This document shows positions 2,264-32,619 of a DNA stretch of 38,651 bases, piece by piece (position 1 is the first letter of the stretch; every line of letters begins with the position of its first letter). The translations under genes were made by a program, and so were the position numbers. Location: positions 1 through 38,651 of the IMG/VR virus record IMGVR_UViG_3300036401_000359; one strand, given 5' to 3'. Origin of the DNA: a virus. The notes under the pieces are model-generated. The model saw nothing but the letters and a program-made list of their open reading frames with translations. It made no database searches and was not told the DNA's origin.

Positions 2264-3304
2264 TCAGTGGGTCAACGGGTTGGGTACGTGCGCTTCGCGC
2301 GCGAGCCGGGCGATGATCCTGTCCTCGCGCCGGCCGTGCGCACTGACCTGGTCGCCGTGCCTGAACTTCGCACGACAGACCGGGCCAAGGTGTTCGTGGC
2401 GATGCCGGCGCACCGCGCAACGTTTCGCGACGAGCTGCGCCCGCGTCGAGACGAGCTCGCGCTCCAGGCCCCGCAGCACCGCGACGTGCACCACGAGGAG
2501 GTGCCGCAGCTGGCCCGGGGACGGTGGCGGCGCCGGCGGCCGCGCGAGCGCGATCAGCCCGCGGTCACGGTCACGGTCGACACCACAGGTGCCGCACCAC
2601 TGCCACATCTTGATCGCCGTCGACGGGTAGCCGTGGAACGGGTACGGGGCGCTGATGCCCCACTCGGCGGGCCAGATCCACCCGACGCAGTGGATCGGCG
2701 GGAGCATCCCCGGCGCACCGTAGAGCTCGGCGAGCACATGGTGCGCGACGGCCGCGCGCATGTACTCGCAGGCGTGGAAGTACGCGGCGTTGATCTCGGC
2801 GTCCGCGTTCTCGCCGAGGGTGCACCCGGACCGGCGGTACACGCTGTTCGCGACGGCCTCTTCAGCGCCCCCCGAGTTGCCCTCCATGAACGTGTATAGA
2901 CCGCACAGGATGTGGTGGGCGTGCGCGTCGTGGATCTGCGACCACACCGTCGGCTCGAGATGCAGCCCGTAGTTGGACTGGATGATCACGCACGCTATGC
3001 CTGCGGTCGAGGGTTCGGCGCCCTGCCACTGCGACCAGTCCTGGCACGCCGCGCCGCCGCCACCAGACAGCGGGATCGCGTCGACGTTGTGGTGCTGGAA
3101 GCCGAAGTGCTGGGCGATACATTCGCCGCTCTGCGGCGGGTCGAGCGTGTGGCACGGCGGGCCGCTGGCCTGGTGGAAGGTGAGGGTGTGGTGGGCGCTC
3201 CCGCAGCCGCTCAACGTGAGCGCCAGCGCGGCCAAGGCCACCGCCCACCACGCTAGGAACGCGAAGATCAGTTTGCGCATGGGCGCGAGCGTACCTGCAG
3301 GCAT
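2264..3304 (-). CDS. GH25-family lysozyme (endolysin) with lipoprotein-type signal
   Basis: This 346-residue muramidase-like endolysin would cleave the glycan backbone of peptidoglycan. GH25 hallmarks are DWSQWQG (89-95, first catalytic Asp), DAE (168-170, the D-x-E pair), WIWPAEW (209-215) and WQWCGTCGVDRD (234-245). The N-terminus is a type II signal: hydrophobic 12-30, then lipobox LSGC with Cys34. Unlike standard cytoplasmic endolysins, it should be exported and lipid-anchored by the host. The start is ATG at 3304 behind GGAGG, seven bases away. The last 95 residues or so are Arg-rich and unrecognised. It lies directly upstream of the holin gene. Codons for residues 135-138 contain one of the GTATAGAC sites, using the rare Leu codon CTA. 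Confidence 0.82.
   Translation of the reverse strand: MPAGTLAPMRKLIFAFLAWWAVALAALALTLSGCGSAHHTLTFHQASGPPCHTLDPPQSGECIAQHFGFQHHNVDAIPLSGGGGAACQDWSQWQGAEPSTAGIACVIIQSNYGLHLEPTVWSQIHDAHAHHILCGLYTFMEGNSGGAEEAVANSVYRRSGCTLGENADAEINAAYFHACEYMRAAVAHHVLAELYGAPGMLPPIHCVGWIWPAEWGISAPYPFHGYPSTAIKMWQWCGTCGVDRDRDRGLIALARPPAPPPSPGQLRHLLVVHVAVLRGLERELVSTRAQLVAKRCAVRRHRHEHLGPVCRAKFRHGDQVSAHGRREDRIIARLAREAHVPNPLTH
2894..2901 (+). repeat. GTATAGAC site 1 (inside endolysin gene)
   Basis: Exact octamer, with extended form GTGTATAGACC. On the coding strand it reads GT-CTA-TAC, giving a rare CTA codon. It is one of six same-orientation copies in the window. Confidence 0.7.
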
Positions 3305-3653: not shown

Positions 3654-3662
3654 GGCTCCCCG

Positions 3663-6171: not shown

Positions 6172-8081
6172 TAGATGCGCCCCAGGAAGCAGGGCCGGTA
6201 GAACACCTGCGCCTTGATTTTGTCGATCCCGACATCCGGTGTCTGTCCGAGCAGGCCACGGCTGTTCTTCACGAGAAGCTCGACCGCGCGCCCCTCAAGG
6301 CCCGACGTCGGCAGCCGGAAGAGTTCCCCGGTTTCCTCGCTCACCCGCACGTACGCGCCCGTGGCGGTGTCCTCGCGGTAGGCGCCGTCGTAGCTGACCT
6401 GCGACAGGCGTTCGCTGTAGAGCACCGCGTCTTCGAGGACACTACCCCCGCCGATCGAGTAGTAGACGCGGATCGTGACGGTACCGACGAGTTGCAGCTG
6501 GGTAGAGAAACCCGTGATCCACGCGGCAATCCCGAAGTTGGCGGCGTTGATCTGCGCGGGCGTCCACGTGGTCCCCCACAGGTCGCTCGGGCCACCGAAG
6601 ATGAACGTGCCGAACGCGCTGCTCCCACCCGGCAGATTCTTCGTCGTCCCAGCGGTCGCACCGGCCTTCAACATGCTCACAACCAGTTCGGGGGTCGAAC
6701 TCTTCTGCACTTCCCCGAGGACCACTTCGATGCCCTTGATCGTCCCTTCCGACGAGACCGCGAACCCCATGCCCTTCCCGACGAGCGCGTGCGAGCTACC
6801 TCCGCCCGGCTGCACCCCCGCCTGCCCCGCAGTGCCCGCCTGGATGTTCGTCGCATTTTCCCACGGGTTCGCGCCAGCGTGGACCGCGTTGCTGTCTTCG
6901 CCGACGGTCGGTTCACGGATCGGACGCAGCAACGTCGACGCGGGCTGAGCAGTCGCCCGCAGCCGTCCCGCCGCCCCATCGGACACCGGCTGCAGCCAGA
7001 TCCGGTCGATCCCGATCGCATGCGCCACCGTCCCCGTTTCGACCTGCACGATCCCGCGCCACCAGTGTTCCCCGACCGGCGGTTCTTCGATGTTGATTTC
7101 GCCGAGGTCGAGTAGTTCCATGTTCGAGCTCGCGTTGTACGTCGCGGGCGCGTTGTAGATCGGCGCCGTCGCGTCATCCAGCGACCACGCGAGCCGCACC
7201 TGCGCCGGCGCGCCTTCGCCGCTTACGCGAGCGATCACGCGGAACACGCCGAGATGCGTCAGCGGACCACCCGACAGCAGGTCCGTGGACAGCATCGGGT
7301 GCCACGTTTCCGGTTCCGGTGAGGCGAGCCGCACCCATTTGCCGCTGTACGCCAGCGCCTGCACCGCTTCCACCGCACCATTCAACGGCGTCATCAGCTT
7401 CGCGTCGATCGCGAGCGCCGCCGTCGCCGCACTCGAGTAGTGGCGGCTCCGGCACCCGTAGAGCAGCGATTTCTGGGTCTGTTTCGCCTGCTCGGTCAAC
7501 ACCATCTTCGCGCGCGCCGGGTAGTCCCCGTCGATCACGGCCTGCACCGCCGCTTTCTTCAGGACACCACGCGCTTCGCCGGTCCCTTCGATCGCGTCGA
7601 GCGTGACGAGTTGCCCGTAGAAGTCGGGGAGACATTCGAGCTTCAGCACCACACCCGTCTCCACCTGGCCCGTCTCACCGAACTTGTCCGGCAACGTCAG
7701 CGACGCACCCACGATGTCCGCGAACATCGGTCCGCCGAGCAGCCGCTTGCGCATCAGGATCCCGCCCTCGGCCTGCAACCGGCCGACCTTCATCTGAAGT
7801 TCTTTGCGGGCTTCCTCCTCTTCCGCGCTATTCAGGCCACCGCCAAGGATCAGCGGGACCGTCACGACACGGTTCGGGATCCGGAACCCCACGGGCGTCT
7901 GCCCGTACCGCTGTTCGGCGAGGTACTGCTGGATCGCGGCTTCGCCCCAGTCGATCCCGGCCTGGTCGATTTCGATCGGGCCGGTGCCCTGGTTCAGCAC
8001 CAGCGGCGCGTGCGGCGACGTCAGCCCTTCTTCTTCGTACGGCTCCGCGGGGTCGAGGATCACTTCGTAGATGCTGCTCAT
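6171..8081 (-). CDS. Distal tail protein (Dit-like), large form
   Basis: This 636-residue protein comes directly after the tape measure and is coupled to it by ATGA, the standard Dit position at the tail tip. The N-terminal 230 residues or so (DWGEAAIQQYLAEQRYGQTP, then RIPNRVVTVPLILGG) look like the Dit ring domain. The long C-terminal part (about 260-620) is rich in beta-strand-like, Gly/Ser/Thr segments (HWWRGIVQVETGT and others) and probably includes inserted carbohydrate-binding or receptor-contacting modules. Classic Dit proteins are about 250-300 residues, so this is an evolved, enlarged form. The precise boundary of the added domains is inference. Confidence 0.6.
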   Translation of the reverse strand: MSSIYEVILDPAEPYEEEGLTSPHAPLVLNQGTGPIEIDQAGIDWGEAAIQQYLAEQRYGQTPVGFRIPNRVVTVPLILGGGLNSAEEEEARKELQMKVGRLQAEGGILMRKRLLGGPMFADIVGASLTLPDKFGETGQVETGVVLKLECLPDFYGQLVTLDAIEGTGEARGVLKKAAVQAVIDGDYPARAKMVLTEQAKQTQKSLLYGCRSRHYSSAATAALAIDAKLMTPLNGAVEAVQALAYSGKWVRLASPEPETWHPMLSTDLLSGGPLTHLGVFRVIARVSGEGAPAQVRLAWSLDDATAPIYNAPATYNASSNMELLDLGEINIEEPPVGEHWWRGIVQVETGTVAHAIGIDRIWLQPVSDGAAGRLRATAQPASTLLRPIREPTVGEDSNAVHAGANPWENATNIQAGTAGQAGVQPGGGSSHALVGKGMGFAVSSEGTIKGIEVVLGEVQKSSTPELVVSMLKAGATAGTTKNLPGGSSAFGTFIFGGPSDLWGTTWTPAQINAANFGIAAWITGFSTQLQLVGTVTIRVYYSIGGGSVLEDAVLYSERLSQVSYDGAYREDTATGAYVRVSEETGELFRLPTSGLEGRAVELLVKNSRGLLGQTPDVGIDKIKAQVFYRPCFLGRI

Positions 8082-11000
8082 CGTGCGAGTCCTCCTCCGT
8101 TAGACGGGAGCCGCCGGCCAGCGGTGCGCGCGGTACCGCGCGTCTTCTTCTCGACCCGGAAGTCGACGTAGTCGCGCAGCCAGTCCATCCCCGGACCGTA
8201 GTGCGCGTGGATGTGCCACTCGGGATCATCGCCCGCAGCCGAGACGCGCTCCCCGGCCTGCAGCAGCGCCATGCGCTCCGCGCCGGGCGGTCCAGGGATC
8301 ACGCCGCCCGAGTGGAACGTGCCCGCGAACGGCGGCAACGCCTGCAGCACTTTGTACTGCGCCTGCGACACCGCGTACGCCTGCGCCAGCTGTTCGTTCT
8401 GCTGTTTGAGCAGCCCGTTCAGTTCCGATTCTTTTTCGGCCGCGCCCTTCGACGGGCCCGGCATCGGCGGGACCGCTTCAGCTTCTTTGAGCGACGCCTG
8501 CAACTGGGCGAGCGCGAGCGCCAAGCCGGGGATCGTCGTCTCCACCGACTCGGTGATCTTCGCCCCAAGTTCGTTGCGGCCCGTCTGCAGCGTGTCGATC
8601 TGTTTCTTCACCGCGCCGAGCTCGCCGCTCGTCCCGATCTTGGTGGTGTTCCCCCCGAGCACGTCAAGCGATTCTTCGAGAGGCACCATCTGGTTCCGGA
8701 TCTGGTTCGCGAGCAGCGCTTCACTCGCCGCGGCACTCGAGCGACCGGTCGGCCCCGAGAGCGCCGTGATGAAGTTGGAGATGCCCTGCGACTCGGATTT
8801 CCAGTGCGCCACCAAGCTCTTGTTCACTTCGTACGACGGCAGGCCCTGCTCTTCGGTGATCGCCTGCTGCAGCGCGCCCTGGTGCTGCCGCGCTTCGTGG
8901 ATGGTGTGTTCCCGCGCTTCTTTCGCTTGGGCCGCCGACAGCGCGTGCTTCAGTTTCTGGGTCTGCAGGTGGCGCGCGCGTTCCTTCAGCGCCTTGTACC
9001 GCGCGAACGTGATGTGCAGCAGGTGTTCGAGTTTGCGCTTGCGTTCCTGCTTCTTCTTGATGAACGCGTTGGCCGCGTCTTTCTGGTGCCGCTCGATCCC
9101 GACGAGCGAGCCCTGCGCGCTGAGTTGCGCTTCGAGGACGCGCTGCTGCGCGCCGAAGACGGGGAAGCCAGCGGTGAACGGCACCCCGTGGATCGTGGTG
9201 TGTCCCGCGTGCCCCGTGAAGTCCTTGGCGAGCACGCCGACGTCGGGCTGCGTCAGGAGCCGGTGGTCGTCGAGGCCGCCGATGAACTGGAGCAGTTCGC
9301 CCTGGCGCGTCAGCGCGGGCGTTTCGCCTTCGCGCTGCTGGAAGCGCTGGAGTTCGCGTTCGGCGAACGGCACGAGCGTCCCAGCCCCAACGTTCTCCCC
9401 CGCGCTGAGCGTCGGCTGCAGGAGCGCCATGTCCGCTTCGAGGATCGACGCCGGGTTCGACGTCATCGACGAGAGGAGTTCGCTCTCGGACGACAGGAGG
9501 TTGTATTCGCCTTCGGGCACACCGACCGCGCCGGCGCCCGCGAAGCCCGGCACCTTGCCCAGCGTCGTGATCAGTTTCGACAGCGACACGTGGCGCGGTT
9601 TCGGGGTGCGGTGCGCGTGCACCACCCCGCGCGGCCTGCGCGCCGCGTGTCCCGTGACGCGCCCGCCGTGCTGGAAGCCCCGCACGAACCCGCCGCCCGC
9701 CATGAACTGCCGGTAGGCGCCCGTGTTGTACGTCGTCCACGGGATCCAGTTCCGGCCGTTGCTCGAGATCGCGATCGCGGCGCGCACGTTCCCCGCGATG
9801 TCGAACGTGGACTGCGCGCCGTGGATGCTGTTGATCTGCCACAGCCCGCGGTCGATCGTCCCGTTCGCGTTGTGGTTTTCGCTGTTCGGGTCGCCGCCGG
9901 ACTCGGCGAGCGCGATCGCGGCCGCGATGTGCGCCGACGCGCGGCTGCCGCCGTACTGCACCCACAGCGCTTCGAGTTGCGCTTTCGAGAACCGGCCGCG
10001 CGCGACCTTCCCCGAGCTCGCGCTCGGCGACCCGACGATGCTCCCCGCGACACCAGCACCGGCACCGGCGTGCCCGGCGAGGTAGTGGGTGGCGGCGTGC
10101 GCGACGTGTCCCAGGCCGTGCGTGAGGATGCCGTGCACCGCGCCGGTCCCGTGCACGTGCGGGGCGTGTATAGACGGGACGGACGCTGCGCTCGCGCCGC
10201 CGACACCGGTGACACCGGCGCCGCCGAGCAGCTGGTGCAACAGCACGGCCATGCTGTCGCCGTGCCCGAACGGTGGGCCGAACCCGATCTCGATGTGCGG
10301 GCCGGTGGAGATCCCCACGATCCCCGCGCCGACGCTCGAGATCTGCTGGCCCGCCCGCACGCTCGCACCCACCCGCACCGTGTCGGGACCGGCGTGCCCG
10401 TAGTAGATGTTGCGGCCGGTCAGCGGCCCGGAGGTGATCCGCAGGATCGGGGCGTTCGGCCCGAACCCCGAGATGCCCTCGCCGATGATCGTGCCGGGCC
10501 CGATCGCGAACTCCGGGGTCCCAGCCGGTGCGGGGATGTCGACGCCCTGGTCGATCGACCAGCGGCCGGGCATCATCTGCGACCGGGGGAGCGGCAGGCT
10601 GTACCCGACGAACCCGCCCGTGGCCATGTGGTTCGGCTTCGTGACGGACGAGAAGAGCCCGTGCAGGCCGCCGAAGCCTTGCATTTCAAGGCCGGCGTCG
10701 ACGTAGGGCAGCTGGTGGCGGTTCAGGATGACGGCGGTCTCGCCCTCGCCGACCATGATGTCGCTGCCGCCGATGCTCATCGGCACCGTGTCGTGCCCAG
10801 CGGCGCCGCGCGGCCCGATCTGCACCAGTCCGCCCTGCGCGTGGACGGCCTGGCCCGGGTTGTTGCTGCCCTGGCTTGAGCCCTGCCCGGCGGGCGCGCT
10901 CACCGCCGGTTCGTTGCCGCCACCACCGAAGAACGACCCGACGCCTTTCCCTACGGTGGAGACGAGCTTGGCGGCCGCGACGGTCGCGGTGTAACCCTCG

Positions 11001-14000
11001 ACCTGCGGCATAGACAGCGGCTGCGCACCGAACGCCTTGAGCAGGTTGTTCAGGTTGTCGAAGATGACTTTGCCGCCGTCCTTCGTGGACAGCGCGCCGG
11101 CTTCCATCGCACCGAGGATCGATTCGGTGAGACCGACCATCGACCCCTCGACGACGCTCGCACCGTGTTTCGCGAGCGACGCTTTCTTCGATTCGTACTG
11201 GGCAACGGTGAGTTCGCCGTTCTGGTACTGCGTCTTCAGGTGGGCGAACATCGCCTGGTACTTCTTTTCGGTGCTGCTCTTGAGTTTGTCGGTCTCCTCG
11301 CCGGCGATCGTGGTGAACGCGGTGAACGCCGTTTTCGTCCCGATTTCGTGGTTGGCGTACATGCCGTCGATCTTCGAGAACATCGCTTCGTAGATCCGCG
11401 GCGTCTGGTCCCCGGTGGCGTGCGTGTATTCCAGGATCGAGTTCTTGATCGCGGCCATCGCGTGCGAGGTCCCGAGCTGCCCGTGGTGCAGCGCGTCCAG
11501 GACGTGGCTGACCATCTGCGACACGTTTTCCTCGCCGAGCTTGCGGCCGGTCGCGCTGTTCGTGCCGACGGTGTGAGCGATCAGCCTGAAGTTCGCGTCG
11601 AACCGGCCGTACAGTTCGCGCAGCAGCGGCCCGGAGCCGAGCGCGAACTTGTGGATCGCATCCCACGACTTCGACCATTCCGCGTTCCAATGCTGCTGCG
11701 CCGCCTTGGCCTGCTCGAGCGATTCGACGACCTGCTTCAGCGGCTGGTTGATCCCCGCGATGGAGACGTGCCCGGCTTCCTTGATCGCCGAGATGAGCCG
11801 CTGGATCTGCTCGGGCGACCCTTTGATCGCCTGATTCCAGTTCTTGATGTTCACGACGTGGTCCGGGCTGAACAGCCCCAGCAAGCTCCCCAACCCGGCT
11901 GCGCCCGCGCCAACGCCAGCACCGATGAGCGTCCCGACTCCCGGCGCGATCGCCGTCCCGATCCCAGCGCCCGTCGTAGCGCCCTCCAGCACGGCCTTCC
12001 CGCCACCGTGGATGCCGAGCATGTTCGCGACCAGGTTCCCGCCAACGAACCCGATACCGCCGCCGGCGAGCGCGGGCAACCCCACACCGAGACCCTCGCC
12101 GAGCATGCCGAGCATCCCGCCGCGACCCGCGAGCGCCGCACCGGGCCCAGCGAGTTTCCCGAACAGGCCACCGCGCGCGAGGATCCCCGCCAGCAGGCCA
12201 CCGCTCGCGGCCTCACCGCCGATCGCCGCGGTGCTCGAGCTCGCCGAGTTGACGAGGATGTTCGCGCGCTCGGCCGCGCTCAGCCCGGACGCACCCTTCA
12301 CGAGCACACCGCCACCACCGGCGAGCTCGGTCGCGCCGAGCGCACCCACACCAGCCGCCGCGCCCGCGGCGCCAGCGCCCGCTGCAGCCTCCGCTCCCGC
12401 CAGCCGCGCCTGCGCCGCAGCATCAGCGTTGCCCGCCCCGGCAGCGGCCGTCTCAGCGCCCGTGAGCCACCCCAGCGCCGTCTTGACGCCCTGCCACGTC
12501 GCCGCAGCCCCGAACGCCTTGATCGAGACGAGCAGCCCAGCGAACAGGATCGCGAGCGGCTTGGAGTGCTGCAGCACGTCGTCGAGCCCTTCGATGATCG
12601 GGGTGAACGCCCGCATCGCCGTGGTGGTGAGTTCCACCAGCGCGGGCGCCACGGCGAGATACGTCGACCCGAACGCCTTCAGCAACGGCAGCAGCACGTG
12701 GCCGAGCGCTTCGATCTGTTCCTTGTGGACAGCGAAGATCGACCGGATCTGGCCTTCGCCCTTCGCGGAGTGCTCCCATTCGCGCAGCCGTTCAAGGGCG
12801 TGCGTGAGCCCAGTGACGATCGCACCAGCCTGCCCCTGGGACTGGTGGAAGAACCCGTACAGGTCCTGGCCGACGACCTTGATCAGCGCGGACCACATCC
12901 GGAAGTCAGCGACGAACTTCCCGACGATCTGTTCGAGCTGGCTGTTGTCGAGGTTGTTCAGCCGCGAGAAGAGATGGTCGAGCATTTCGGTCAGTCCGCC
13001 CGTGTACCTGGACGCGATCTGCGTCAGCCGCGCGAAGAACTCGAACCCCTGCGTGCCGGCATGGATCGCGGTCGGCAGCTTGGTCCTGAAGCTGTTCTCC
13101 AGTTCGTTCCATATGCCCACGCCCTGCGGGCCCTGCAGCCACGAGAACAGCGGCTTGATGCCCTGGTTGACGATCGTGAGGTTTTCCTGCGCCGCCACCG
13201 CGACACGCGGCACGAACGAGTGGCCGAGATCAACGACCTGCTGCAGCACCCCAACGGCCTGCACCCGCGCCTGGCTCGTCGCCTTGTCCCAAAATTCGTT
13301 CAGGGCGCTCGCGGACTTCGCGAGCCCGAGCTCGGCCTTCACCCCCGCCGTGTTCCCCAGCGCGGCCATTTCGAGGTTCAGTTCGTGCGTGGCTTCCTTC
13401 GCCTGGATGCTCCCGACCCCGTACTTGGCCTGGGCTTCCTGGACCTTCTTGTAGCCTTCGGCGAGCGCCTTCGTGTCCGCGATCGTGCTCTTCAGCACCC
13501 CGAGATCCGAGCCGCCGCCGACCGCGAGCTGCCCCGCACCGCCGAGCCCCAGCAGGCCAGCGCCGATCCCGCCGCCGACAGCCGACCCGCCGAGCCCAAG
13601 GATCGTCGTGAGGATGTGCTCCGCGCCGAGGCCCGCGAACCCACCGAGAGACCCGAGCGCCGCCGTACCCGCCACCAGGCCACCACCGCCCATCAGCAGC
13701 CGCGAGAACGTCCCCCCACCATCACCACCGCCACCGGAGCGGTGAAGGCCGCCGCCCATCCACCACGGCAACGGCACGAACGAGAAGCCACCACGGCCTC
13801 CCCCGCCTCCCCCACCTCCGCCTCCGCCGGGGCTCACCGCGACGGGCGGGACGACCCCGCCACCACCACCGGAGCCACCCGCCGCCGTGCGAATGTCCGC
13901 CGCAGCTCGCTCCGTCGCCGCGGCGTCCTCACCGAGCGCGTTCAGCACACGCTGGATCGACCCCTGCGTGGTGAAGTCCAGGTCCTTGCGGCCCCGCAGC

Positions 14001-14686
14001 TGCTCGAGGATCGCGATCGTGTTCGCACCCGAGTCAGTCGGCGCAGGCTCCGGGGCAGCCGCAGCCGCCGCCGTCGAGCCCCCGCTTGTCGCCTCTTTCG
14101 CCGCGAGGACTTCGCGCAGCAGATCGGACTGCTCTTCGCGGCTCGCCGCGCGCACAGCGTTGATCAGGTCGCGTTCGGACATGCCCGCGACAGCCGTGTG
14201 CTGCGTCGGCTGAGCGCTCGCACCACCCGCGGGCTGATCGGACACCGCCGCACCCAGCGACCCCAGCCCCAGGCGCGACCCCGCCTCGAGCACGAACGCG
14301 ATCGGGTTAGACCGGCCGCCCGCAGCCTCCGGCCCATGGATGCCCCATATCGCGCCGGGCCCATGCGCGGGCGCGCCGCCGCCACCCCTACCGGGAAGCG
14401 CGGCGAGGATCCGCTCCAGTTCGGTGGGCCCCAACGACGAAACGGGCGCGCGCGCACCCTCTTCGGGCACGAGCACACCCGCTCGTGGATGCAGCACGCC
14501 GCCGGCAGCGACAGCCTGCGTCGCGCCGACGTGCGTCTGAATGTTGGTGTGCAGGCGGTCCAGCATCGCCTGCATCTCTGCGACCGCCGTGGCTACACGG
14601 GCCTTCGCGGCGGCGAGGTCACGATCAAGAGGAGCGAGGTCCGCGCCGAGATCAAGTGTTGCCTCACCGAGGAGCTCTCCTGCCAT
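8078..14686 (-). CDS. Tape measure protein with M23-like and lysozyme-like (SLT) domains
   Basis: This 2202-residue protein sets tail length and travels with the DNA during injection. It has an Ala/Gly-rich N-terminal half, a poly-Gly tract (about 280-315), hydrophobic helices (about 330-390 and 750-950), and a long Lys/Glu/Gln-rich helical C-terminus. About 1380-1470 is M23-like (DQGVDIPAPAGTPEF, then YYGHAGPDTVRVGASVRAG and GISTGPHIEIGFG). The usual zinc-ligand His is Gln and the HxH is HIE, so peptidase activity is doubtful. About 1565-1660 is a transglycosylase/lysozyme-like domain with catalytic-type Glu in ALAESGGDPNSENHN and RGLWQIN. The start is ATG at 14686 after AAGGGAGG; the GTG six bases earlier is less well placed. 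Confidence 0.92.
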   Translation of the reverse strand: MAGELLGEATLDLGADLAPLDRDLAAAKARVATAVAEMQAMLDRLHTNIQTHVGATQAVAAGGVLHPRAGVLVPEEGARAPVSSLGPTELERILAALPGRGGGGAPAHGPGAIWGIHGPEAAGGRSNPIAFVLEAGSRLGLGSLGAAVSDQPAGGASAQPTQHTAVAGMSERDLINAVRAASREEQSDLLREVLAAKEATSGGSTAAAAAAPEPAPTDSGANTIAILEQLRGRKDLDFTTQGSIQRVLNALGEDAAATERAAADIRTAAGGSGGGGGVVPPVAVSPGGGGGGGGGGGRGGFSFVPLPWWMGGGLHRSGGGGDGGGTFSRLLMGGGGLVAGTAALGSLGGFAGLGAEHILTTILGLGGSAVGGGIGAGLLGLGGAGQLAVGGGSDLGVLKSTIADTKALAEGYKKVQEAQAKYGVGSIQAKEATHELNLEMAALGNTAGVKAELGLAKSASALNEFWDKATSQARVQAVGVLQQVVDLGHSFVPRVAVAAQENLTIVNQGIKPLFSWLQGPQGVGIWNELENSFRTKLPTAIHAGTQGFEFFARLTQIASRYTGGLTEMLDHLFSRLNNLDNSQLEQIVGKFVADFRMWSALIKVVGQDLYGFFHQSQGQAGAIVTGLTHALERLREWEHSAKGEGQIRSIFAVHKEQIEALGHVLLPLLKAFGSTYLAVAPALVELTTTAMRAFTPIIEGLDDVLQHSKPLAILFAGLLVSIKAFGAAATWQGVKTALGWLTGAETAAAGAGNADAAAQARLAGAEAAAGAGAAGAAAGVGALGATELAGGGGVLVKGASGLSAAERANILVNSASSSTAAIGGEAASGGLLAGILARGGLFGKLAGPGAALAGRGGMLGMLGEGLGVGLPALAGGGIGFVGGNLVANMLGIHGGGKAVLEGATTGAGIGTAIAPGVGTLIGAGVGAGAAGLGSLLGLFSPDHVVNIKNWNQAIKGSPEQIQRLISAIKEAGHVSIAGINQPLKQVVESLEQAKAAQQHWNAEWSKSWDAIHKFALGSGPLLRELYGRFDANFRLIAHTVGTNSATGRKLGEENVSQMVSHVLDALHHGQLGTSHAMAAIKNSILEYTHATGDQTPRIYEAMFSKIDGMYANHEIGTKTAFTAFTTIAGEETDKLKSSTEKKYQAMFAHLKTQYQNGELTVAQYESKKASLAKHGASVVEGSMVGLTESILGAMEAGALSTKDGGKVIFDNLNNLLKAFGAQPLSMPQVEGYTATVAAAKLVSTVGKGVGSFFGGGGNEPAVSAPAGQGSSQGSNNPGQAVHAQGGLVQIGPRGAAGHDTVPMSIGGSDIMVGEGETAVILNRHQLPYVDAGLEMQGFGGLHGLFSSVTKPNHMATGGFVGYSLPLPRSQMMPGRWSIDQGVDIPAPAGTPEFAIGPGTIIGEGISGFGPNAPILRITSGPLTGRNIYYGHAGPDTVRVGASVRAGQQISSVGAGIVGISTGPHIEIGFGPPFGHGDSMAVLLHQLLGGAGVTGVGGASAASVPSIHAPHVHGTGAVHGILTHGLGHVAHAATHYLAGHAGAGAGVAGSIVGSPSASSGKVARGRFSKAQLEALWVQYGGSRASAHIAAAIALAESGGDPNSENHNANGTIDRGLWQINSIHGAQSTFDIAGNVRAAIAISSNGRNWIPWTTYNTGAYRQFMAGGGFVRGFQHGGRVTGHAARRPRGVVHAHRTPKPRHVSLSKLITTLGKVPGFAGAGAVGVPEGEYNLLSSESELLSSMTSNPASILEADMALLQPTLSAGENVGAGTLVPFAERELQRFQQREGETPALTRQGELLQFIGGLDDHRLLTQPDVGVLAKDFTGHAGHTTIHGVPFTAGFPVFGAQQRVLEAQLSAQGSLVGIERHQKDAANAFIKKKQERKRKLEHLLHITFARYKALKERARHLQTQKLKHALSAAQAKEAREHTIHEARQHQGALQQAITEEQGLPSYEVNKSLVAHWKSESQGISNFITALSGPTGRSSAAASEALLANQIRNQMVPLEESLDVLGGNTTKIGTSGELGAVKKQIDTLQTGRNELGAKITESVETTIPGLALALAQLQASLKEAEAVPPMPGPSKGAAEKESELNGLLKQQNEQLAQAYAVSQAQYKVLQALPPFAGTFHSGGVIPGPPGAERMALLQAGERVSAAGDDPEWHIHAHYGPGMDWLRDYVDFRVEKKTRGTARTAGRRLPSNGGGLAR
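10168..10175 (+). repeat. GTATAGAC site 2 (inside tape measure gene)
   Basis: Exact octamer within GTGTATAGACG. On the coding strand it reads G-TCT-ATA-C, giving TCT and the rare Ile codon ATA in the linker between the M23-like and lysozyme-like domains. Confidence 0.7.
11008..11015 (+). repeat. One-mismatch variant GCATAGAC (inside tape measure gene)
   Basis: Seven of eight bases match the GTATAGAC motif, in the same orientation as the exact copies. It may be a weak site or chance. Confidence 0.3.
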
Positions 14687-15505: not shown

Positions 15506-15533
15506 TATGCCTCCTTCGGCTATGTGTGGGTGT

Positions 15534-15541
15534 GTATAGAC
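15534..15541 (+). repeat. GTATAGAC site 3 (intergenic, upstream of tail assembly chaperone)
   Basis: Exact octamer within TGTGTATAGACC. It is the only intergenic copy, lying in the 42-base gap between the coiled-coil gene (stop at 15548) and the chaperone start (15505), just upstream of its AAGGAGG. Confidence 0.75.
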
Positions 15542-15547
15542 CTGGTG

Positions 15548-22790: not shown

Positions 22791-23434
22791 GCTCGGCTCC
22801 TTGGCTCGTAGAGGATCTGCTCGGGACGGTCGCGGTAACCGTCGATGCGAGGGTCCCCCGTCACGAACAGCCCGAAGCCACCCCATGTCTGCCCGGCGAA
22901 CGGGCCCTTCGCGAACGTGTATCCGGCCATGAACTCCTCGTCGCGGTAGACGATGCCCTGCAGGTCGGGGATTCGGCGCACGCCCTCGCGAACCTCCGCG
23001 TTCGCGGTGTCGTGCACCAGGACCACGGTGCGCTGACACACCGGCGATCCCAGCAGCGCCAGCAGGTCCCTCTGCACACCATCCGCGGTGTGGTCGCCGT
23101 CGACGAGCGCGAAGTCGACGTCGCCGGGGCACTCGTCCTCGAGCCACGCCGGCAACGTGACCGCGCTGTCACCGGCGTGGAAGCGGACGTGCGGCTCGAG
23201 CCCGACGAGCTCCTTCAGGTCGAACGCGTGTACGCGCGCGGAGTGGCGCGCGAGCCGCGCGAGGCTGCCGCCCTCGGCCACACCGACCTCGACCGCGAGC
23301 TTCGGCCGCAGCTGGCAGAGGATGCCCTCCAGCGCCGCGCGCTCGGCGAAGCTCATCTGCGTGCGCTGGTCCTTCAGCAGCGGGATCGGCGCGTTCGCGA
23401 GCGGCCGCGGGATGTTCCCGTTGGCGTGGCTCAC
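22787..23434 (-). CDS. Class I SAM-dependent methyltransferase (Methyltransf_24-like)
   Basis: This 215-residue Rossmann-fold methyltransferase has the SAM-binding motif LAVEVGVAEGGSLARLA (about 47-63), an acidic ribose-binding position after it (VHAFDLKEL) and a DFALVDGDHTADGVQRDL block, typical of Methyltransf_24 enzymes that act on sugars or small molecules. The start is GTG at 23434, overlapping the RCC1 gene stop as GTGA. It lies in the accessory block that also holds two glycosyltransferases. Methylation of a glycan on virion proteins is a reasonable inference, but the substrate cannot be read from the sequence. Confidence 0.75.
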   Translation of the reverse strand: MSHANGNIPRPLANAPIPLLKDQRTQMSFAERAALEGILCQLRPKLAVEVGVAEGGSLARLARHSARVHAFDLKELVGLEPHVRFHAGDSAVTLPAWLEDECPGDVDFALVDGDHTADGVQRDLLALLGSPVCQRTVVLVHDTANAEVREGVRRIPDLQGIVYRDEEFMAGYTFAKGPFAGQTWGGFGLFVTGDPRIDGYRDRPEQILYEPRSRA

Positions 23435-24876
23435 TTCGGGGTGGCGGTCACGATCCGCGTCCCGAAGTTCGTGTCGTGCACACGCACTTCGTAGGGCTGG
23501 CCCGGCGTGAGACCGCGGAACGTGTCCGTGCGTTCCGCCGGCGCGAGTCGGGAGTACGTCCACGCCGACAACGGGTGCGTCACGGGCCGGATCCCCATGA
23601 GCCATTTCGAGGTCTCGCCGCCGTCACGCCACTGCGCCGTGATCGACCCTTCGCCCGCGGTCCCCGTCAGCACCGGCGGCGGCGCCGGCCCGGAGATCAC
23701 AGCGTTCGCGCTGTGTTCCTGGCTCGAGACCTGCAGCACACCGGTCTCTTCGATGCGGCCCGGTGTCGTGTGCGGCGCACTGAAGGTGCCCTGCCCGAGC
23801 TCGCCGTGCAGGTTGAAGCCCCAGCTGAAGCCGAGCGCACCCGTCCACGCGAACGCGAACCCCGCACCGGCGTTGATCCCTTCCACGCCCGCGAGCCCCG
23901 GCACCTGCACCGGGACCTTCGAGCACGGCCGCGACCCAGTGCCCGCCACGACGCACGTTTCGGGGCCGGTGCCGACGCCGAGCTCGCCGACTTCGTTTTC
24001 GCCCCACGTGAAGACGTGGCCGCCGGCGATCGCCATGCTCTCGTCATCGCTCGTGGAGACCGCCGTCACGCCGGCGAGGCCCACCACCTTGTGGAACGTG
24101 CCGGTGACTTCGAGGGCGCCGTCTCCGAGCTGCCCGTAGCGGCCCGCGCCGTCCGCTTCAACCGTACCGTCGGTGCACAGGATCAGGATGTGCACCGCCT
24201 TGGTGGGGTTACCGCCCGCGGCAACATCGGCGACGGGGCAGTGCGCGGGCATCGGGGCAGGCCGCGTGTGTTCGCCTGCCGGCGGCCCGAGCTCCCCGGC
24301 CTTGTTCTGGCCGAACCCGAGCAGCTGGCCGCTCGAGGTGAGCACGATGTTGTCGGGGCCGCCCGCCCACACCTTCACGACACCGGCGAGATGTTCGACG
24401 AGTTCAGGGGTGGGCTGCCCGTATTCGATCCCGGTTTTCAGGCCCTTCGCGGTGAACCCATTGCCGCCCTGCCCGTACCCGTCAGAGCCGCATGTATAGA
24501 CGGTCCCCGCGGTCGTGCGCGCGATCAGGTGCGCGCCACTCGCGGACACTTCCGCGATCCCGTGCAGCAGCGTCGGCTTCGGGCTCGCGTTGACATACCG
24601 GATGCTCTTGCGGCCGTTGCAGTCCTGCCCGTAGTTGTCGCCGCCCCACGCTTCGACGGTCCCGTCCGCCATGCGGGCGTACCCGTTGTTGGAGCCCGTG
24701 ACGACTTCGACGGGCGGCGCCTGCAGCAGCGTGGCGACGGCCAGCGTGTTGCCGCCGGTGTAGCCCGCGCCGAGCGGGCCATGCGAGTTTTCGCCCCAGC
24801 CCACGACGGCGGCGGACGCCGGCGCGGCGAGGGTCAGCAGGGCCGTGGCGAGCACGGCGAGGACGGAACGTCTCAC
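23431..24876 (-). CDS. Secreted RCC1-repeat beta-propeller with C-terminal fibronectin type III domain
   Basis: This 481-residue protein has a clean Sec signal peptide (RRSV, hydrophobic 5-18, cut after ASA at 22). Seven RCC1-type signatures follow: WGENSHGPLG, WGGDNYGQD, CGSDGYGQGG, FGQNKAGELG, GAGRYGQLG, WGENEVGELG and WGFNLHGELG. Together they predict a complete seven-bladed propeller. Residues about 395-481 look like fibronectin type III (GEGSITAQW to GLTPGQPYEVRVHD). The start is set at GTG 24876 because GAGAGGAG lies just upstream; ATG at 24894 is possible but leaves a longer, poorer leader. Such exported propellers are common in actinobacterial, particularly Thermoleophilia, genomes and rare in phages. 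It may bind a ligand at the cell surface. Confidence 0.85.
   Translation of the reverse strand: MRRSVLAVLATALLTLAAPASAAVVGWGENSHGPLGAGYTGGNTLAVATLLQAPPVEVVTGSNNGYARMADGTVEAWGGDNYGQDCNGRKSIRYVNASPKPTLLHGIAEVSASGAHLIARTTAGTVYTCGSDGYGQGGNGFTAKGLKTGIEYGQPTPELVEHLAGVVKVWAGGPDNIVLTSSGQLLGFGQNKAGELGPPAGEHTRPAPMPAHCPVADVAAGGNPTKAVHILILCTDGTVEADGAGRYGQLGDGALEVTGTFHKVVGLAGVTAVSTSDDESMAIAGGHVFTWGENEVGELGVGTGPETCVVAGTGSRPCSKVPVQVPGLAGVEGINAGAGFAFAWTGALGFSWGFNLHGELGQGTFSAPHTTPGRIEETGVLQVSSQEHSANAVISGPAPPPVLTGTAGEGSITAQWRDGGETSKWLMGIRPVTHPLSAWTYSRLAPAERTDTFRGLTPGQPYEVRVHDTNFGTRIVTATPK
24494..24501 (+). repeat. GTATAGAC site 4 (inside RCC1 gene)
   Basis: Exact octamer, flanked as ATGTATAGACG. On the coding strand it reads GTC-TAT-ACA (Val-Tyr-Thr), a third codon phase relative to sites 1 and 2. 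Confidence 0.7.
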
Positions 24877-24886
24877 GGGTCTCCTC

Positions 24887-25279
24887 TCAGACATGGGCGT
24901 AGGGGTCCTTGAACGGACGCTCTTTGGCGGTGGTTCGCACCGCGCGCTGCACAGCTTTGAACGCCTCCATGCGCATCCATCCACGGAGGTACTTCAGGCG
25001 GGCGTTCTTGACGTTGCGGCCCGCGCTCGCGGGCACCCAGGCTTCGGCGCCGCGGTACGCCGCTTCGAGCGCGGCCTGTTCGATGTCCTCCGCGGGCACC
25101 AGGCCCCCGTGGATCCCGCCGAGCATTTTCGCGAACACCCGCAGCGCCGCGAGCTCCTCTTCCGTGATCGCCTGCTGCGCACGGCGGTGCTCGTTCATGC
25201 GGCGCTTGGCCTGCATCGCCACGAGGTCCTGCACGGGGCCGCAGCCGAGAACCGCGATGCCGGCGAGCGGGTCGCTCAC
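24887..25279 (-). CDS. Helical protein of unknown function
   Basis: This 130-residue, largely helical protein has a short N-terminal stretch SDPLAGIAVLGCGPV, an Arg/Gln-rich helix (AMQAKRRMNEHRRAQQAI), a central region with KMLGGIHGGLVPAEDIEQAA, and a basic C-terminal helix (RNVKNARLKYLRGWMRMEAF). The start is GTG at 25279, overlapping the TGA of the upstream secreted-peptide gene as GTGA. This junction lies at the edge of the 36-base tandem repeat. I do not recognise the family. It could be a small internal virion protein. Confidence 0.5.
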   Translation of the reverse strand: MSDPLAGIAVLGCGPVQDLVAMQAKRRMNEHRRAQQAITEEELAALRVFAKMLGGIHGGLVPAEDIEQAALEAAYRGAEAWVPASAGRNVKNARLKYLRGWMRMEAFKAVQRAVRTTAKERPFKDPYAHV

Positions 25280-27700: not shown

Positions 27701-27907
27701 CTAGAACGTGGTGGCGACGAGCGCGCCGGACGGGTCGAGCGCGAGGTAGACGGGTTCATCGCCCGCTTCGCTGCACCCGCTGCTGTCGTAGAACGCGACC
27801 CCCGCGTTCACGCCGTACGTGCTCTTCATCCCGAGCCCCGGCAGCACGACGCGCCCGTCGTCGTCGTTCTGCAGGGTCGCGAGTTCGGTCGAGAGTTCGA
27901 TGCTCAC
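27701..27907 (-). CDS. Small beta-rich protein, unknown
   Basis: This 68-residue protein contains ELATLQNDDDGRVVLPGLGM, a GVNAGVAFYDSSGCSEAGDE middle and a VYLALDPSGALVATTF end. The start is GTG at 27907, overlapping the GT2 stop as GTGA. Size and position between a glycosyltransferase and fibre genes suggest a virion accessory or fibre-joining protein, but no family is recognised. Confidence 0.45.
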   Translation of the reverse strand: MSIELSTELATLQNDDDGRVVLPGLGMKSTYGVNAGVAFYDSSGCSEAGDEPVYLALDPSGALVATTF

Positions 27908-28404
27908 GCTGGGTCCACCAGCACCGTGACATCCTCGTGCCAGCACGGCGCACCGCACCACTCGTCGCCGCACACGCTGCAGATGAAGTCGAAGTCGCCC
28001 TCGTACCTGGCACCCCACCGGTGGCGCACCGCGACATGGCCGGGCACGCACACCATCTGCGTCGAGACGTTCCCGCACACAACCTGCTGCTCGGCCCACA
28101 GCTCGACGCCGCTCGCGTAGCGCATCCGGAAGAGGTGCACCGCCTCCGGCGCCGACCCGAACGCCGCGCGCACGATCGCCAGCGCGAACGGGGTATAGAC
28201 GTCGTCGTCGTCGATGAACAGCATCGCGTCGCCCTCAGCGCGGCCCATCAGCCGGTTGCGGGCCTCGTGCCCCCAAGGCGCGTTGTCGTTGACGTCGACG
28301 AGCAGCTCGTCTCCGGGGTGCAGCTGCGGCGAGATCGACTGGAGAGTGCGCTCCAGTGTCGCGCGGCCGCTCGAGGCGACGATCACGGACAGCGTCGGGG
28401 TCAC
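27904..28404 (-). CDS. GT-A-fold family 2-like glycosyltransferase
   Basis: This 166-residue minimal GT-A domain begins TPTLSVIVASSGRATLERTL, the usual first strand and helix. It continues with a QLHPGDELLVDVND segment and an acidic metal-binding motif FIDDDDVYTPFAL, the counterpart of the DXD motif. Cys residues at the end (CSVCGDEWCGAPCW) may bind zinc or structure the acceptor site. Family 2 enzymes use nucleotide-sugars as donors. The start is GTG at 28404, coupled by GTGA. A GTATAGAC site overlaps the acidic motif. It is close to a GT4-like enzyme and a methyltransferase, suggesting glycan decoration; the acceptor is unknown. Confidence 0.75.
   Translation of the reverse strand: MTPTLSVIVASSGRATLERTLQSISPQLHPGDELLVDVNDNAPWGHEARNRLMGRAEGDAMLFIDDDDVYTPFALAIVRAAFGSAPEAVHLFRMRYASGVELWAEQQVVCGNVSTQMVCVPGHVAVRHRWGARYEGDFDFICSVCGDEWCGAPCWHEDVTVLVDPA
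28193..28200 (+). repeat. GTATAGAC site 5 (inside GT2 gene)
   Basis: Exact octamer within GGGTATAGACG. On the coding strand it reads GTC-TAT-ACC, directly after the run of Asp codons of the metal-binding motif. Confidence 0.7.
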
Positions 28405-28631
28405 GATTCGAGCAGCCTGTGTCCGCCGCCGCCCGCGGGATGGTCGGGGTGGTGGTGCTTGCAGACAGGGTGGCCATGCCGCGGGTTGATGTGCCACTGC
28501 AGCCGCGGGCAGCCCCGCATGTGGCAGTTGTGGGTCCGCCACCACATCAACGGGTAGCCGAGCACGAGCACGGCGAACGTCGCGAGTTCGATGAGGCTGT
28601 CACCGAAGACGCTTTCCTGTAGGAACTTCAC
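28401..28631 (-). CDS. Small membrane protein with Cys/His-rich tail
   Basis: This 76-residue protein has an N-terminal amphipathic part (KFLQESVFGDSLIELA), one hydrophobic segment (about 13-30, ATFAVLVLGYPLMWW) and a tail rich in His and Cys (NCHMRGCPRLQWHINPRHGH, then VCKHHHPDHPAG), a likely metal-binding cluster. The start is GTG at 28631, sharing GTGA with the GT4 stop; its stop shares GTGA with the GT2 start. Sandwiched between two glycosyltransferases, it may recruit them to the membrane. That is inference. Confidence 0.5.
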   Translation of the reverse strand: MKFLQESVFGDSLIELATFAVLVLGYPLMWWRTHNCHMRGCPRLQWHINPRHGHPVCKHHHPDHPAGGGGHRLLES

Positions 28632-29728
28632 AGCGCCTCCGCGTGCTCTGCGCGGTTCACGCGCGCCTGTTCCCACGCTTCGCACCACCGCGCCGCGTTC
28701 ACCTCGTAGGTGTGCTCCCGTGCGACGACTTCGCGGGCGACCATCGCGCTCTCGATCCGCAGGCTCTCGTCGATCATCAGCGCCGTGAGCTCGCGCTTCC
28801 AGTCACGCGAGCGCCACTTCGCGAGCCGGCCAATGCCTTCCGAGAACAGCCGCTCATACTCGGGTGTGGGCGAGGCCACGAACGGAACGCCACGGGCGGC
28901 GTACTCGATGCCCTTCAGGTAGGACTTCGCGCGGTTGAAGGGCGTGTCCGCGAGCGGGACGATCCCGACGTCGAGGAGTCCCAGCCCGCGGTGGTAGCGG
29001 TCGACGGGCACGAACCCCGTGTCGTCGGGCTCCTCGCGCAGCCCGAGCTGCTCGTGGATGTCGCGCGCCGCACCCACCACCGCGAACCGCCACCCGTCCG
29101 CGCGGTCGAGGGCTTCGCGGACGCCGGCGCCGGGCGCGCGCATGTCACCGACGTGCATGCTCACGTCCCCGGCCCACCCGAGGGTGCGCCCGTCACTGAA
29201 CCGCTCGAGCTCAAGGATGGACGCCGGGATGCAGTTCGGCAGCACCTGGTAGCGGCCGTGGGGGGCGTACCGGTCCGCGAGCGCCTGCGTGGTGCACGTC
29301 ACGAGGTCCGCTTTCGCGCACGCGCTCTCGAGGTGCTGCCAGTTCAGGGCGGGCGACGTCGCCGGTTGGAACTCGTGGTAGTGGGGGTGCGTCGGCGGGA
29401 TCACGGACGGGTCGTCGTCGATGTCGACCACGATCGCGGCGCCGCGCCGGCGCATGCACGCGATCGCCTCCAGCAGCGACGCCTTCGCGGGGCGGGTGAA
29501 CACCGCGACGTCCTGCTGCACCTCGTTCAGGCGGTAGCCCTCCGCGTCGCCTTTGCGCTGCGGGCGCACGGTGCACACCACGCGGCCGACGTCGTGGCTG
29601 GAGTGGACCATGAAGTCCCCGACGAACACGTCGACGTCGAGCCCTTCCGCGCGGGCGACACGGGCGGGCTCCTCGAGCCGGTAGAAGGACGAGCCGTGGG
29701 TGTCGGCGGGGAAGACGCGGATGAACAT
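28628..29728 (-). CDS. GT4-like glycosyltransferase
   Basis: This 366-residue GT-B-type enzyme has an N-terminal Rossmann half with FIRVFPADTHGSSFYRLEEP and IVVDIDDDPSVIPPTHPHY. The C-terminal half has LGWAGDVSMHVGDM, a GLGLLDVGIVPLADTPFN block, KSYLKGIEYAARGVPFVAS and SPTPEYERLF. The pattern D-x-G-x-x-P-L, then K-x-x-E-Y-x-x-x-G-V-P-x-V, is the donor-nucleotide region of GT4-like enzymes. The start is ATG at 29728, overlapping the portal stop as TGATG. The gene opens the accessory block that follows the portal. A sugar-transfer role on virion proteins or host glycans is likely; donor and acceptor are unknown. Confidence 0.82.
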   Translation of the reverse strand: MFIRVFPADTHGSSFYRLEEPARVARAEGLDVDVFVGDFMVHSSHDVGRVVCTVRPQRKGDAEGYRLNEVQQDVAVFTRPAKASLLEAIACMRRRGAAIVVDIDDDPSVIPPTHPHYHEFQPATSPALNWQHLESACAKADLVTCTTQALADRYAPHGRYQVLPNCIPASILELERFSDGRTLGWAGDVSMHVGDMRAPGAGVREALDRADGWRFAVVGAARDIHEQLGLREEPDDTGFVPVDRYHRGLGLLDVGIVPLADTPFNRAKSYLKGIEYAARGVPFVASPTPEYERLFSEGIGRLAKWRSRDWKRELTALMIDESLRIESAMVAREVVAREHTYEVNAARWCEAWEQARVNRAEHAEAL

Positions 29729-32619
29729 CAGTCGAGCACCGGGGAGAAGGACTGGGTGGAGTCGGGGTGCTGCAGCGCGGCGGCTTCGCGGGCCTCGTCG
29801 ATCGGGATGATCTCGCCGTCGCGCGGCGCGCCGTCGCCGCCGTTGCCGAGTGCCTGGACCCGCGAGACCTTCCCGGTCGCGTGGTATGCCTCGACGCTGG
29901 CCTGACGCTGCAGGTTGGAGGTCTCGGTGCGCGCGATGAGCCCCGAGCGCCATTTCGCGCCGGCGAGACGGAACCGGCCGCGCGGCACGTTCTCGCGGAT
30001 CCGGGCGGCGACCTGCGTGTGGTTCTCGCCGGCGGCGAGACCGTCCGCGATCGCGCCGTGCACCGCGTCACGGACCTGTGGCTCGAGGTCGCGCACCCGG
30101 AGGTGGCGGCCCGAAGACTGGCGCATGCGCGCGAGCGCGCGCTCGTCGATCCTGGCGTCCGCGCCGAGCTGGCCGCGCACGAGGCGCTGGGTGTCCTGCG
30201 CCACGCGTCCGGCGTGCACGGCGAGGACTGGCCGCAGCCGCTCGCCGACCCACCGGTTCACGCCGGTGCGCGCGACGACGGCGCCGGCGGCCTGGTCGGG
30301 GTTGCGGCGCTTGGTCTGGTCGAGCGACGCGTACGCGCGCGCGGCGTGCGCACCGAGCTCACCGAGCGCACTGTCCATGTCGCGCTCCAGCTGAGAGGAC
30401 AGCACGCCGTGGCGCTGTGCGAGCTCCTGGGAGAGGTCCAGCACCCCGGTCTCGGCCTTCGCGAGCGGCTCGCCGGTGAGGGGGAAGTCTTCGCGCTGGC
30501 CGGCGCGCACGAGCGACATGTGCGTGAACCGCAGCGGCAGCGCCGGCAGCTCCGGGATCTCCCTCGTGGGCTGCTCGTAGCCGAGAGTGATGTGCGGAGT
30601 GAAGCCGTGTTCGCTGGACACGGTGTACCCGGCGCGGCCGAGATGGTCGACGAGGTGGTGTCGGGCGTGCGGGAGGCCGGGCACGTCGGGGCTGGCGTAT
30701 AGACACCGGCCGTCCTGGGTGGCGTTGAAGACACCGGCGCCCTGGATGGAGCCCTCCAGCGGGGCGGTCGACGCCGCGATGCCGCGCACGACGTCCGCGA
30801 GACGGTCCGGGTCCTGCAGGTCCGCCGCGGGCCCCAGGTAGGCGAGCGTGAGGTGCAGCTCGGCGGGGTCCTCGCCACCGGTCTGAGCGATCCTGCGCGC
30901 GACCTCCTGGTCGGGGTACAGCGCGACCATCGCACCCGTGTGCGATTCGGCCTTCTTGATGTGGTCGCGCTCGGTCGGCTTCGCCGGCGTCCGCGGTTCG
31001 TCCGCAGACCGGCCGGGCGTTTTCTCTTCCAGCTGCTTCGGGGGCTGCTGGCCGGGCCCGTCCTCGTTGCCCCACGCCGGGCGCCACTGGCTGTCGTGCG
31101 CCGTCGGCGAGGGCTGCGCGGGCGGCATGAGATCGTCCCATTCGGGTTCGGGGAGCGCGCCCGCCCTGAAGAGATGCTCGATCAGGCCCTTCGACCACGG
31201 GACCTGCGCGCCGGCGAGCGAGATGTTCGTCAGGAATTCGCCGACGAGCCGCAAGTCGATGCGTCCCGCCGAGGAGTGCCGCAGTTTCGGCATCTTCTTC
31301 GGGTGCATCCCGTTCAGCGCCAGCAGCCGCGGGAAGCCGTAGCGGTTGACGACCTCGCACATGAGGTCGAGGATCGCGTCGATCGCGACCCCGAACAGTT
31401 CGGCCTTCACGTCGACCATTGCGTAGGAGCCCATGCCGTCCTGGCCGATCGAGAGGAAGTCCGCGAGCACGCTCGTGAGCATCCGGTTTTCGTAGCGGCG
31501 GATCACCTCGTCGGTGTCGAGCTGCCGCGAGCCGCCGGTGTTCATCAGTTCGAGCGTCCACTCGCTGTTGGGCTTCACGACGCCCTCGTCCTCGTCGCGG
31601 CGGATGTCGCGGACCATGTCCTTCGCGATCTCCAGCAGCTCGCTGTTTTCCGGGGCGAGCAGGTCGACGCCCGGCGGCGGCGCGGCGACGGGGATCCCCG
31701 CGAGGTCCCGCTCGATGCCGATCGCCTCGATCGCCTGGATGTTCTGGATCGCGTAGTAGGACGTCCACGCGTTCCGCAGCAGCGACCGGCCCTCCGGGTT
31801 CTGGCGGGTCGTCTCGGTGCGGAACAGCATCGCCTTGCCGATCGGGATGATGTGGCGGCCGCCGTGCCAGTCGATCTGTTCCATCGCGCGCAGCCCGGCG
31901 TACCCGCGGAACCACCAGCGCATCAGCGTTTCCTGTGCACGAATCGGCAGCTTGCGCCACCCGATGCGACCGTCGCTGTACTGGCTGGAGGGCGGGACGG
32001 GGTCGACGTCTTCGCTGCGGACGTCCCCTTCGATGTTGACGTCGAAGTCGTCGAGGATCGTCGGGAGCGGCTCGCCACCACGGCGGTACTTGTAGACCTC
32101 CTCGTGGAGCGCCCACCCGTACCCGCACATCGAGAGCGCTTCGCTGATGAAGTCGAGCCACGTGTGCGACATGTCGTGCATGCAGGACTCACAGAACCCG
32201 AGGTCCTGGCCGCTGATGGGGACGTCGTCCTCGACGGAGAATTCGACCTGGCGCGCAAGGCTCTTGATCGCGAAGATGATCCCGCCGGCGGTCGGGCTGT
32301 TGTCCATCATTTCCCTGTAAGCCCACGCGCCATACCGGCCGCGGAGCTTGGGGAGCCACTCCTCCAGGACGAACCCGCCGTACTGCTTCAGCCCCGAGGT
32401 GCCGATCTCGCCGCCGAGCTCGGAGGAGACCTCGCGGTTGGAGACACCGCGGCGCGTGAGCCGCGTGTCCGTGCGGCGGTTGGTCAGCGATACGCGGGTG
32501 CGCTGCTTGGGCTCGACGGACCGCACGCCAGCTGGCAGCACGAGCCCGCTGCGAGGCAGCACGGCGCGCGTGGTCGCGAGCCCGTTGCCGTTGCTCGAAT
32601 TGATCGTCGAGCCGGCCAT
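29728..32619 (-). CDS. Portal - 2H phosphoesterase - MuF triple fusion
   Basis: This 963-residue protein has three parts. Residues 1-510 are a Mu gp29/DUF935-like portal (GGIIFAIKSLARQVEFSVE, MLFRTETTRQNPEGRSLLRN and ENRMLTSVLADFLSIGQDG). About 560-715 is a LigT-like 2H phosphoesterase with both histidine motifs, HLT (589-591, in HLTLAYLG) and HIT (676-678, in HITLGYE). About 785-960 is a MuF head-morphogenesis domain (RSGLIARTETSNLQRQASVE), though its usual Cys cluster is missing. The start is ATG at 32619, overlapping TGATG with the upstream gene. Portal-MuF fusions are known; an inserted 2H enzyme is not typical. The 2H unit would sit inside the capsid and could enter the cell at infection. 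Confidence 0.85.
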   Translation of the reverse strand: MAGSTINSSNGNGLATTRAVLPRSGLVLPAGVRSVEPKQRTRVSLTNRRTDTRLTRRGVSNREVSSELGGEIGTSGLKQYGGFVLEEWLPKLRGRYGAWAYREMMDNSPTAGGIIFAIKSLARQVEFSVEDDVPISGQDLGFCESCMHDMSHTWLDFISEALSMCGYGWALHEEVYKYRRGGEPLPTILDDFDVNIEGDVRSEDVDPVPPSSQYSDGRIGWRKLPIRAQETLMRWWFRGYAGLRAMEQIDWHGGRHIIPIGKAMLFRTETTRQNPEGRSLLRNAWTSYYAIQNIQAIEAIGIERDLAGIPVAAPPPGVDLLAPENSELLEIAKDMVRDIRRDEDEGVVKPNSEWTLELMNTGGSRQLDTDEVIRRYENRMLTSVLADFLSIGQDGMGSYAMVDVKAELFGVAIDAILDLMCEVVNRYGFPRLLALNGMHPKKMPKLRHSSAGRIDLRLVGEFLTNISLAGAQVPWSKGLIEHLFRAGALPEPEWDDLMPPAQPSPTAHDSQWRPAWGNEDGPGQQPPKQLEEKTPGRSADEPRTPAKPTERDHIKKAESHTGAMVALYPDQEVARRIAQTGGEDPAELHLTLAYLGPAADLQDPDRLADVVRGIAASTAPLEGSIQGAGVFNATQDGRCLYASPDVPGLPHARHHLVDHLGRAGYTVSSEHGFTPHITLGYEQPTREIPELPALPLRFTHMSLVRAGQREDFPLTGEPLAKAETGVLDLSQELAQRHGVLSSQLERDMDSALGELGAHAARAYASLDQTKRRNPDQAAGAVVARTGVNRWVGERLRPVLAVHAGRVAQDTQRLVRGQLGADARIDERALARMRQSSGRHLRVRDLEPQVRDAVHGAIADGLAAGENHTQVAARIRENVPRGRFRLAGAKWRSGLIARTETSNLQRQASVEAYHATGKVSRVQALGNGGDGAPRDGEIIPIDEAREAAALQHPDSTQSFSPVLD
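30697..30704 (+). repeat. GTATAGAC site 6 (inside portal fusion gene)
   Basis: Exact octamer within GCGTATAGACA. On the coding strand it reads GT-CTA-TAC, with neighbouring rare TGT and CTA codons, inside the 2H phosphoesterase domain. Confidence 0.7.

Follow-up and report, generated by a model that had tools for sequence, protein, structure and literature searches.

The question raised by this locus is whether an eight-base word that recurs in a single orientation along a viral DNA marks a functional site or a coincidence. The window, that is, the whole stretch of DNA analysed, is a complete IMG/VR record of 38,651 bases, classed as linear, with a G+C content of 68.6%; the record is probably a fragment of a larger genome. 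Its supported genes, where support means codon-position composition together with homology, all lie on the minus strand. The octamer GTATAGAC, found on the plus strand, therefore reads GTCTATAC in the sense direction.

Gene context and placement of the octamer

The minus-strand gene products include the major capsid protein, portal, terminase, prohead protease and tail proteins, together with two glycosyltransferases, an RCC1-repeat protein and a metallophosphoesterase. The closest matches among annotated records, at 32–43% identity, are phages of Arthrobacter, Microbacterium, Roseobacter and Erythrobacter and a faecal phage; these neighbours, taken with the G+C content, point to a host that is probably actinobacterial. 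A search of the fragment, which is without the early region, turned up neither a repressor nor an integrase, nor any clear HTH regulator.

The window contains exactly six copies of GTATAGAC on the plus strand and none on the minus strand, and all six positions listed in an earlier sequence-only reading were verified. The sites and three of the genes are:

2894–2901, plus strand: copy 1, GTATAGAC (sense GTCTATAC), inside ORF 2264–3583; phase 1, GGT CTA TAC
10168–10175, plus strand: copy 2, inside the 2204-aa ORF 8078–14692; phase 2, CCG TCT ATA CAC
15534–15541, plus strand: copy 3, in the 42-nt leader 15506–15547, between the stop of ORF 15548–15808 and a GTG start at 15505
24494–24501, plus strand: copy 4, inside the RCC1-repeat protein 23431–24984; phase 0, GTC TAT ACA; VYT of an RCC1 repeat
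28193–28200, plus strand: copy 5, inside the GT2 glycosyltransferase 27904–28545; phase 0, GTC TAT ACC; DDDDVYTPF
30697–30704, plus strand: copy 6, in the 2'-5' RNA ligase-like domain of the portal ORF 29728–32619; phase 1, TGT CTA TAC
2–9, plus strand: GTATAGGC, one mismatch from the octamer, at the contig end; apart from the six exact copies this is the one place with a TATA, again within sense CTATAC
18810–19832, minus strand: major capsid protein gene (phrog_1005), the anchor for finding relatives
29728–32619, minus strand: portal ORF with an embedded RNA ligase-like domain; its C-terminal part resembles another portal family and head morphogenesis proteins
32902–34452, minus strand: terminase large subunit (phrog_2)

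The copies fall in unrelated genes and in the leader, where a GGAGG ribosome-binding site follows ~17 nt after copy 3. As had been noticed from the letters, the coding copies occupy all three phases (0, 0, 1, 1 and 2, in five ORFs), one of the six lies in an intergenic leader (42 nt), and the codons used by the coding copies (TAT, CTA, ATA, TCT and ACA) are rare. In the window, the frequencies per thousand are 0.84 for CTA, 0.75 for ATA, 1.25 for TAT and 1.9 for TCT. Two of the six copies, in the RCC1 repeat and the GT2 glycosyltransferase, sit on a constrained Val-Tyr-Thr; among the proteins called, this tripeptide occurs only twice, at these two octamer sites, each time with the rare TAT codon. 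The spacing of the copies is compatible with a uniform distribution (Kolmogorov-Smirnov p = 0.92), at a density of about one copy per 6.4 kb.

Several features of the surrounding genes deserve mention in their own right. The 963-aa ORF at 29728–32619 fuses a Mu-type portal, a 2'-5' RNA ligase-like domain (about residues 559–716) and the C-terminal part. The relative L018 encodes its ligase-like domain further downstream, and the relatives L014 and L015 match the portal and C-terminal parts with no ligase in between. Two neighbouring HNH endonuclease-like ORFs (34593–35273 and 35270–35704) lie beside the terminase gene. A tRNA-Asp at 36447–36518 on the minus strand carries the anticodon ATC, where GTC is usual, with a good Rfam score of 59 bits.

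Excess over chance and calibration of the scan

Dinucleotide shuffles lead to an expectation of 0.05 copies of GTATAGAC on both strands, and a first-order model to 0.029 per strand. A stricter null permutes synonymous codons with the proteins fixed and shuffles the non-coding bases; 0.075 sense copies are expected under these codon- and protein-preserving shuffles, and six are seen (p = 2.4e-10). The sequence-only reading had assumed 0.2 copies per strand: the excess is real, but that figure is too high, the models giving 0.029–0.075, and the excess is accordingly larger than was implied. The further claim, that protein constraint cannot explain the octamer, is borne out by the codon-preserving null, which holds proteins and codon usage constant and yields 0.075 copies where six are observed.

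Under the codon-preserving null, GTCTATAC is the most over-represented of all octamers, and the lowest minimum p among 400 held-out shuffles was 3e-7. Multiplication by the 65,536 octamers leaves p ≈ 1.6e-5, a value that holds for a single window, before any scan-wide correction. This figure bears on a possible explanation by chance and scan selection, according to which one octamer of the 65,536 recurred, functionless, in one of many windows: if the screen covered tens of thousands of windows, a family-wise p of this size per window would be nothing unusual. Against such a coincidence, the octamer tops every null used, the held-out shuffles all fall at least three orders of magnitude short, and the rare octamers of comparison segments were likewise never that extreme.

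These comparison segments, 11 in all, were taken from 8 other high-G+C phage records and put through the same scan; no octamer with an expectation below 0.15 passed 2.7e-7 among them. In phage D29, the top rank (1e-18) goes to CTGTCAAG, the known stoperator core, and the scan therefore recovers a true site system. This core is present there in 19 forward and 2 reverse copies, and comparison of their positions with the annotation places about 15 of the 19 forward cores within intergenic gaps or at their borders. The window stands out as D29 does, but its copies are fewer, shorter and gene-internal.

The distribution of TATA in the window follows the same pattern. Each of its seven occurrences is part of a sense CTATAC: six belong to GTCTATAC, and the seventh, at the contig end, is one mismatch away from it. 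The total is ordinary (7 against 4.8 expected from codon usage), and the surroundings of TATA are therefore non-random or selected; this pattern restates the octamer excess and is no independent test of it.

Other words are also over-represented. On the sense strand, GCTCGCG occurs 57 times against 22 expected under the codon-preserving null, and GCTGCTCG 18 times against 4; the latter lies mostly in one phase, and a codon-pair preference is therefore likely. Protein repeats were considered as a cause of the octamer and rejected: the over-represented AAGGCCGA and TACGGGCA are single-phase, hence driven by protein or codon, and GTCTATAC differs from them. For AAGGCCGA, all 12 copies in the window are in phase 0, which indicates an EKAE-type protein pattern. 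Words like GAGAAGGCCGA are the top octamers in several relatives (L007, L008, L010, L015 and L018).

Orientation, flanking sequence and relatives

The strand bias was real as a count (6:0), but not as the strong evidence it had been taken for. In codon-preserving shuffles, coding copies number 0.069 in sense and 0.024 in antisense; codon structure by itself thus tilts the balance ~3:1 towards sense, the 6:0 orientation carries little information, and its chance probability is roughly 0.15–0.2 by our own arithmetic. The proposed flank rule, GKG upstream and C or G downstream, did not survive: pair matches in the 5- and 10-base flanks are random (fractions 0.30 and 0.23). No longer consensus was found within 10 bases on either side, and 20-base flanks show a weak signal (fraction 0.03) that fades when they are lengthened to 40. 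One-mismatch neighbours, which the sequence-only reading suggested counting, are not in excess, with four on both strands (4.3 expected when every match with at most one mismatch is counted) and two in sense (2.4 expected), a comparison of low power with six sites. A palindromic reading, GTMTAKAC, was rejected, as GTCTAGAC, GTATATAC and GTATAC are all absent from the window.

An RNA-level signal is an improbable source of the pattern. It would require GUCUAUAC in the late transcript to be bound or cut by an RNA-binding protein or RNase of phage or host origin, for example a toxin nuclease. All copies are in sense, one lies in a leader near a ribosome-binding site, and an exact word without degeneracy would suit a nuclease. 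However, the orientation is weak evidence, and phages would be expected to avoid cleavage sites, not accumulate them. The predicted RNA folds around the sites have nothing in common and are not more stable than shuffles (z −0.7 to +2.1), and folding thus lends no support to the RNA-processing site suggested earlier. The only Rfam match in the window is to the tRNA.

Internal promoters, with TATAC as a −10 element for a host or phage sigma factor, are very improbable. The leader copy does have TTGCCC, 18 nt and TATACA ahead of a gene, but the other five copies are without a common −35 region and lie far from downstream gene starts. A sigma-70-type promoter, with a −35 element at fixed spacing, was accordingly rejected as a general description, the leader copy being the only candidate.

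The nearest relatives, found via the major capsid protein and the portal, are distant, the best at 49–76% identity. Scans with the terminase, a tail protein and the 2204-aa protein gave no close relatives, a collection of bacterial and archaeal genomes contained no related major capsid protein, and no overlapping contig matched the exact contig-end words. In ~128 kb of the nearest relatives (G001, G002, G004 and G006–G011, chosen by portal or capsid similarity), there is no copy of the octamer on either strand, with ~20 expected at the window's density. The only alignable octamer position is the portal/ligase site of copy 6, where the window has Cys-Leu-Tyr and several relatives have Val-Thr-Tyr or Val-Ile-Tyr, with GTC/ACC/TAC-type codons. 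Absence from relatives at aligned positions, named beforehand as evidence against a signal, is therefore seen at this one position, in relatives too distant (27–54% identity in that domain) to decide. Regulator sites differ even between related phages (PMC6550527), so the absence counts against a lineage-wide signal and not against a phage-specific one. A literature search for the octamer returned only three unrelated papers, each with GTCTATAC once.

The explanation by chance gains from several of these results: no flank consensus, no enrichment of near-matches, relatives without the octamer, two copies on the constrained Val-Tyr-Thr, and an orientation that derives largely from codon structure. 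It ranks close behind a regulator binding site, and RNA-level and DNA-orientation signals are less likely.

Known site systems and a candidate regulator site

Chi and KOPS are G-rich polar oligomers. Like the octamer, signals of this type are eight-base words, oriented and over-represented in coding DNA; the octamer differs in having a TATA core, in being sparse and in its absence from relatives. A DNA orientation or architecture signal, such as a polar site recognised by a translocase or by an enzyme of packaging or recombination, or a skewed oligomer of host type, would accord with an oriented octamer whose spread is compatible with uniformity and independent of gene identity. We regard it as rather unlikely: signals of this kind are usually denser than about one copy per 6.4 kb, the known examples are G-rich, the related genomes are without a copy, and, with the genes all running one way, genome orientation and transcription are inseparable here.

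Actinophages also carry start-associated or intergenic repeats, for example the cluster K SAS and the cluster O repeats. These resemble the octamer as short phage-specific repeats, and one octamer copy lies near a ribosome-binding site, but only that one of the six is near a start codon.

Cluster A mycobacteriophages (L5, Bxb1, D29 and TipsytheTRex) carry stoperators, short asymmetric sites present in many copies and in one orientation to transcription (PMC9283540, PMC6550527). The octamer is likewise a short asymmetric word, multi-copy in what appears to be a high-G+C actinophage, with a consistent orientation to transcription (6/6 in sense, where shuffles expect ~3:1). There are also differences. 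Stoperators have a 13-bp consensus, whereas the octamer spans 8 bp without extension and its flanks are random; most D29 sites, listed in the same way, continue to GGTGGCTGTCAAG. Stoperators lie mostly in promoters and short intergenic spaces, at 20–30 per genome, whereas the octamer has six copies in a 38.7-kb fragment, one intergenic and five inside ORFs. Stoperator sites vary in sequence and the octamer copies do not. Stoperator phages encode a repressor with an HTH and a stoperator domain, which stops elongation when bound to its sites, and none is found among the genes of this fragment, which is without the early region. Membership in the cluster A stoperators was rejected on site length and intergenic placement. 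Of the earlier stoperator-like proposal, the L5-type identity consequently falls, with no longer consensus and five of six copies in ORFs, and a stoperator-like regulator site is retained, tentatively, as the best mechanism.

By analogy with the stoperators, our leading but still tentative reading is that the octamer may be a real, sequence-selected, asymmetric site, most likely bound by a phage regulator of late transcription. The octamer would be kept in the direction of late transcription; a phage-encoded DNA-binding regulator, its gene presumably outside this fragment, would bind it and, once bound, act on transcription along the late operon, and the direction of the site would matter. Six copies in one orientation, the excess over all nulls, rare codons in three phases and the leader copy are the observations behind a regulator site; counting against it are the lack of a consensus beyond 8 bp, the lack of a near-match excess and the five of six copies deep inside genes. 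A more specific version seems improbable to us: an undescribed type of regulator would read the exact gene-internal octamer, tolerating no mismatch and needing no longer site, as a late-operon mark in an uncultivated actinophage lineage, at the price of rare codons and even changed amino acids in virion genes.

If functional, the octamer would make up a site system, asymmetric and tied to one direction, in phages outside the mycobacteriophage cluster A; lying within coding sequence, it would be paid for in rare codons, and it would offer a sequence handle on late transcription control in this lineage. If not functional, it gauges how extreme an oligomer can look by chance across many windows.

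Separately, a recurrent element around AAACYAACCCCCGTTAGGKTA was noticed in Arthrobacter phage Ottawa (L043), at 442, 21875, 23311, 33132, 40385 and other positions, and likewise in Salgado (L042). Its CTAAC and GTTAG halves form an imperfect palindrome, and it has the appearance of a repeat that serves as a regulator site or promoter in these Arthrobacter phages.
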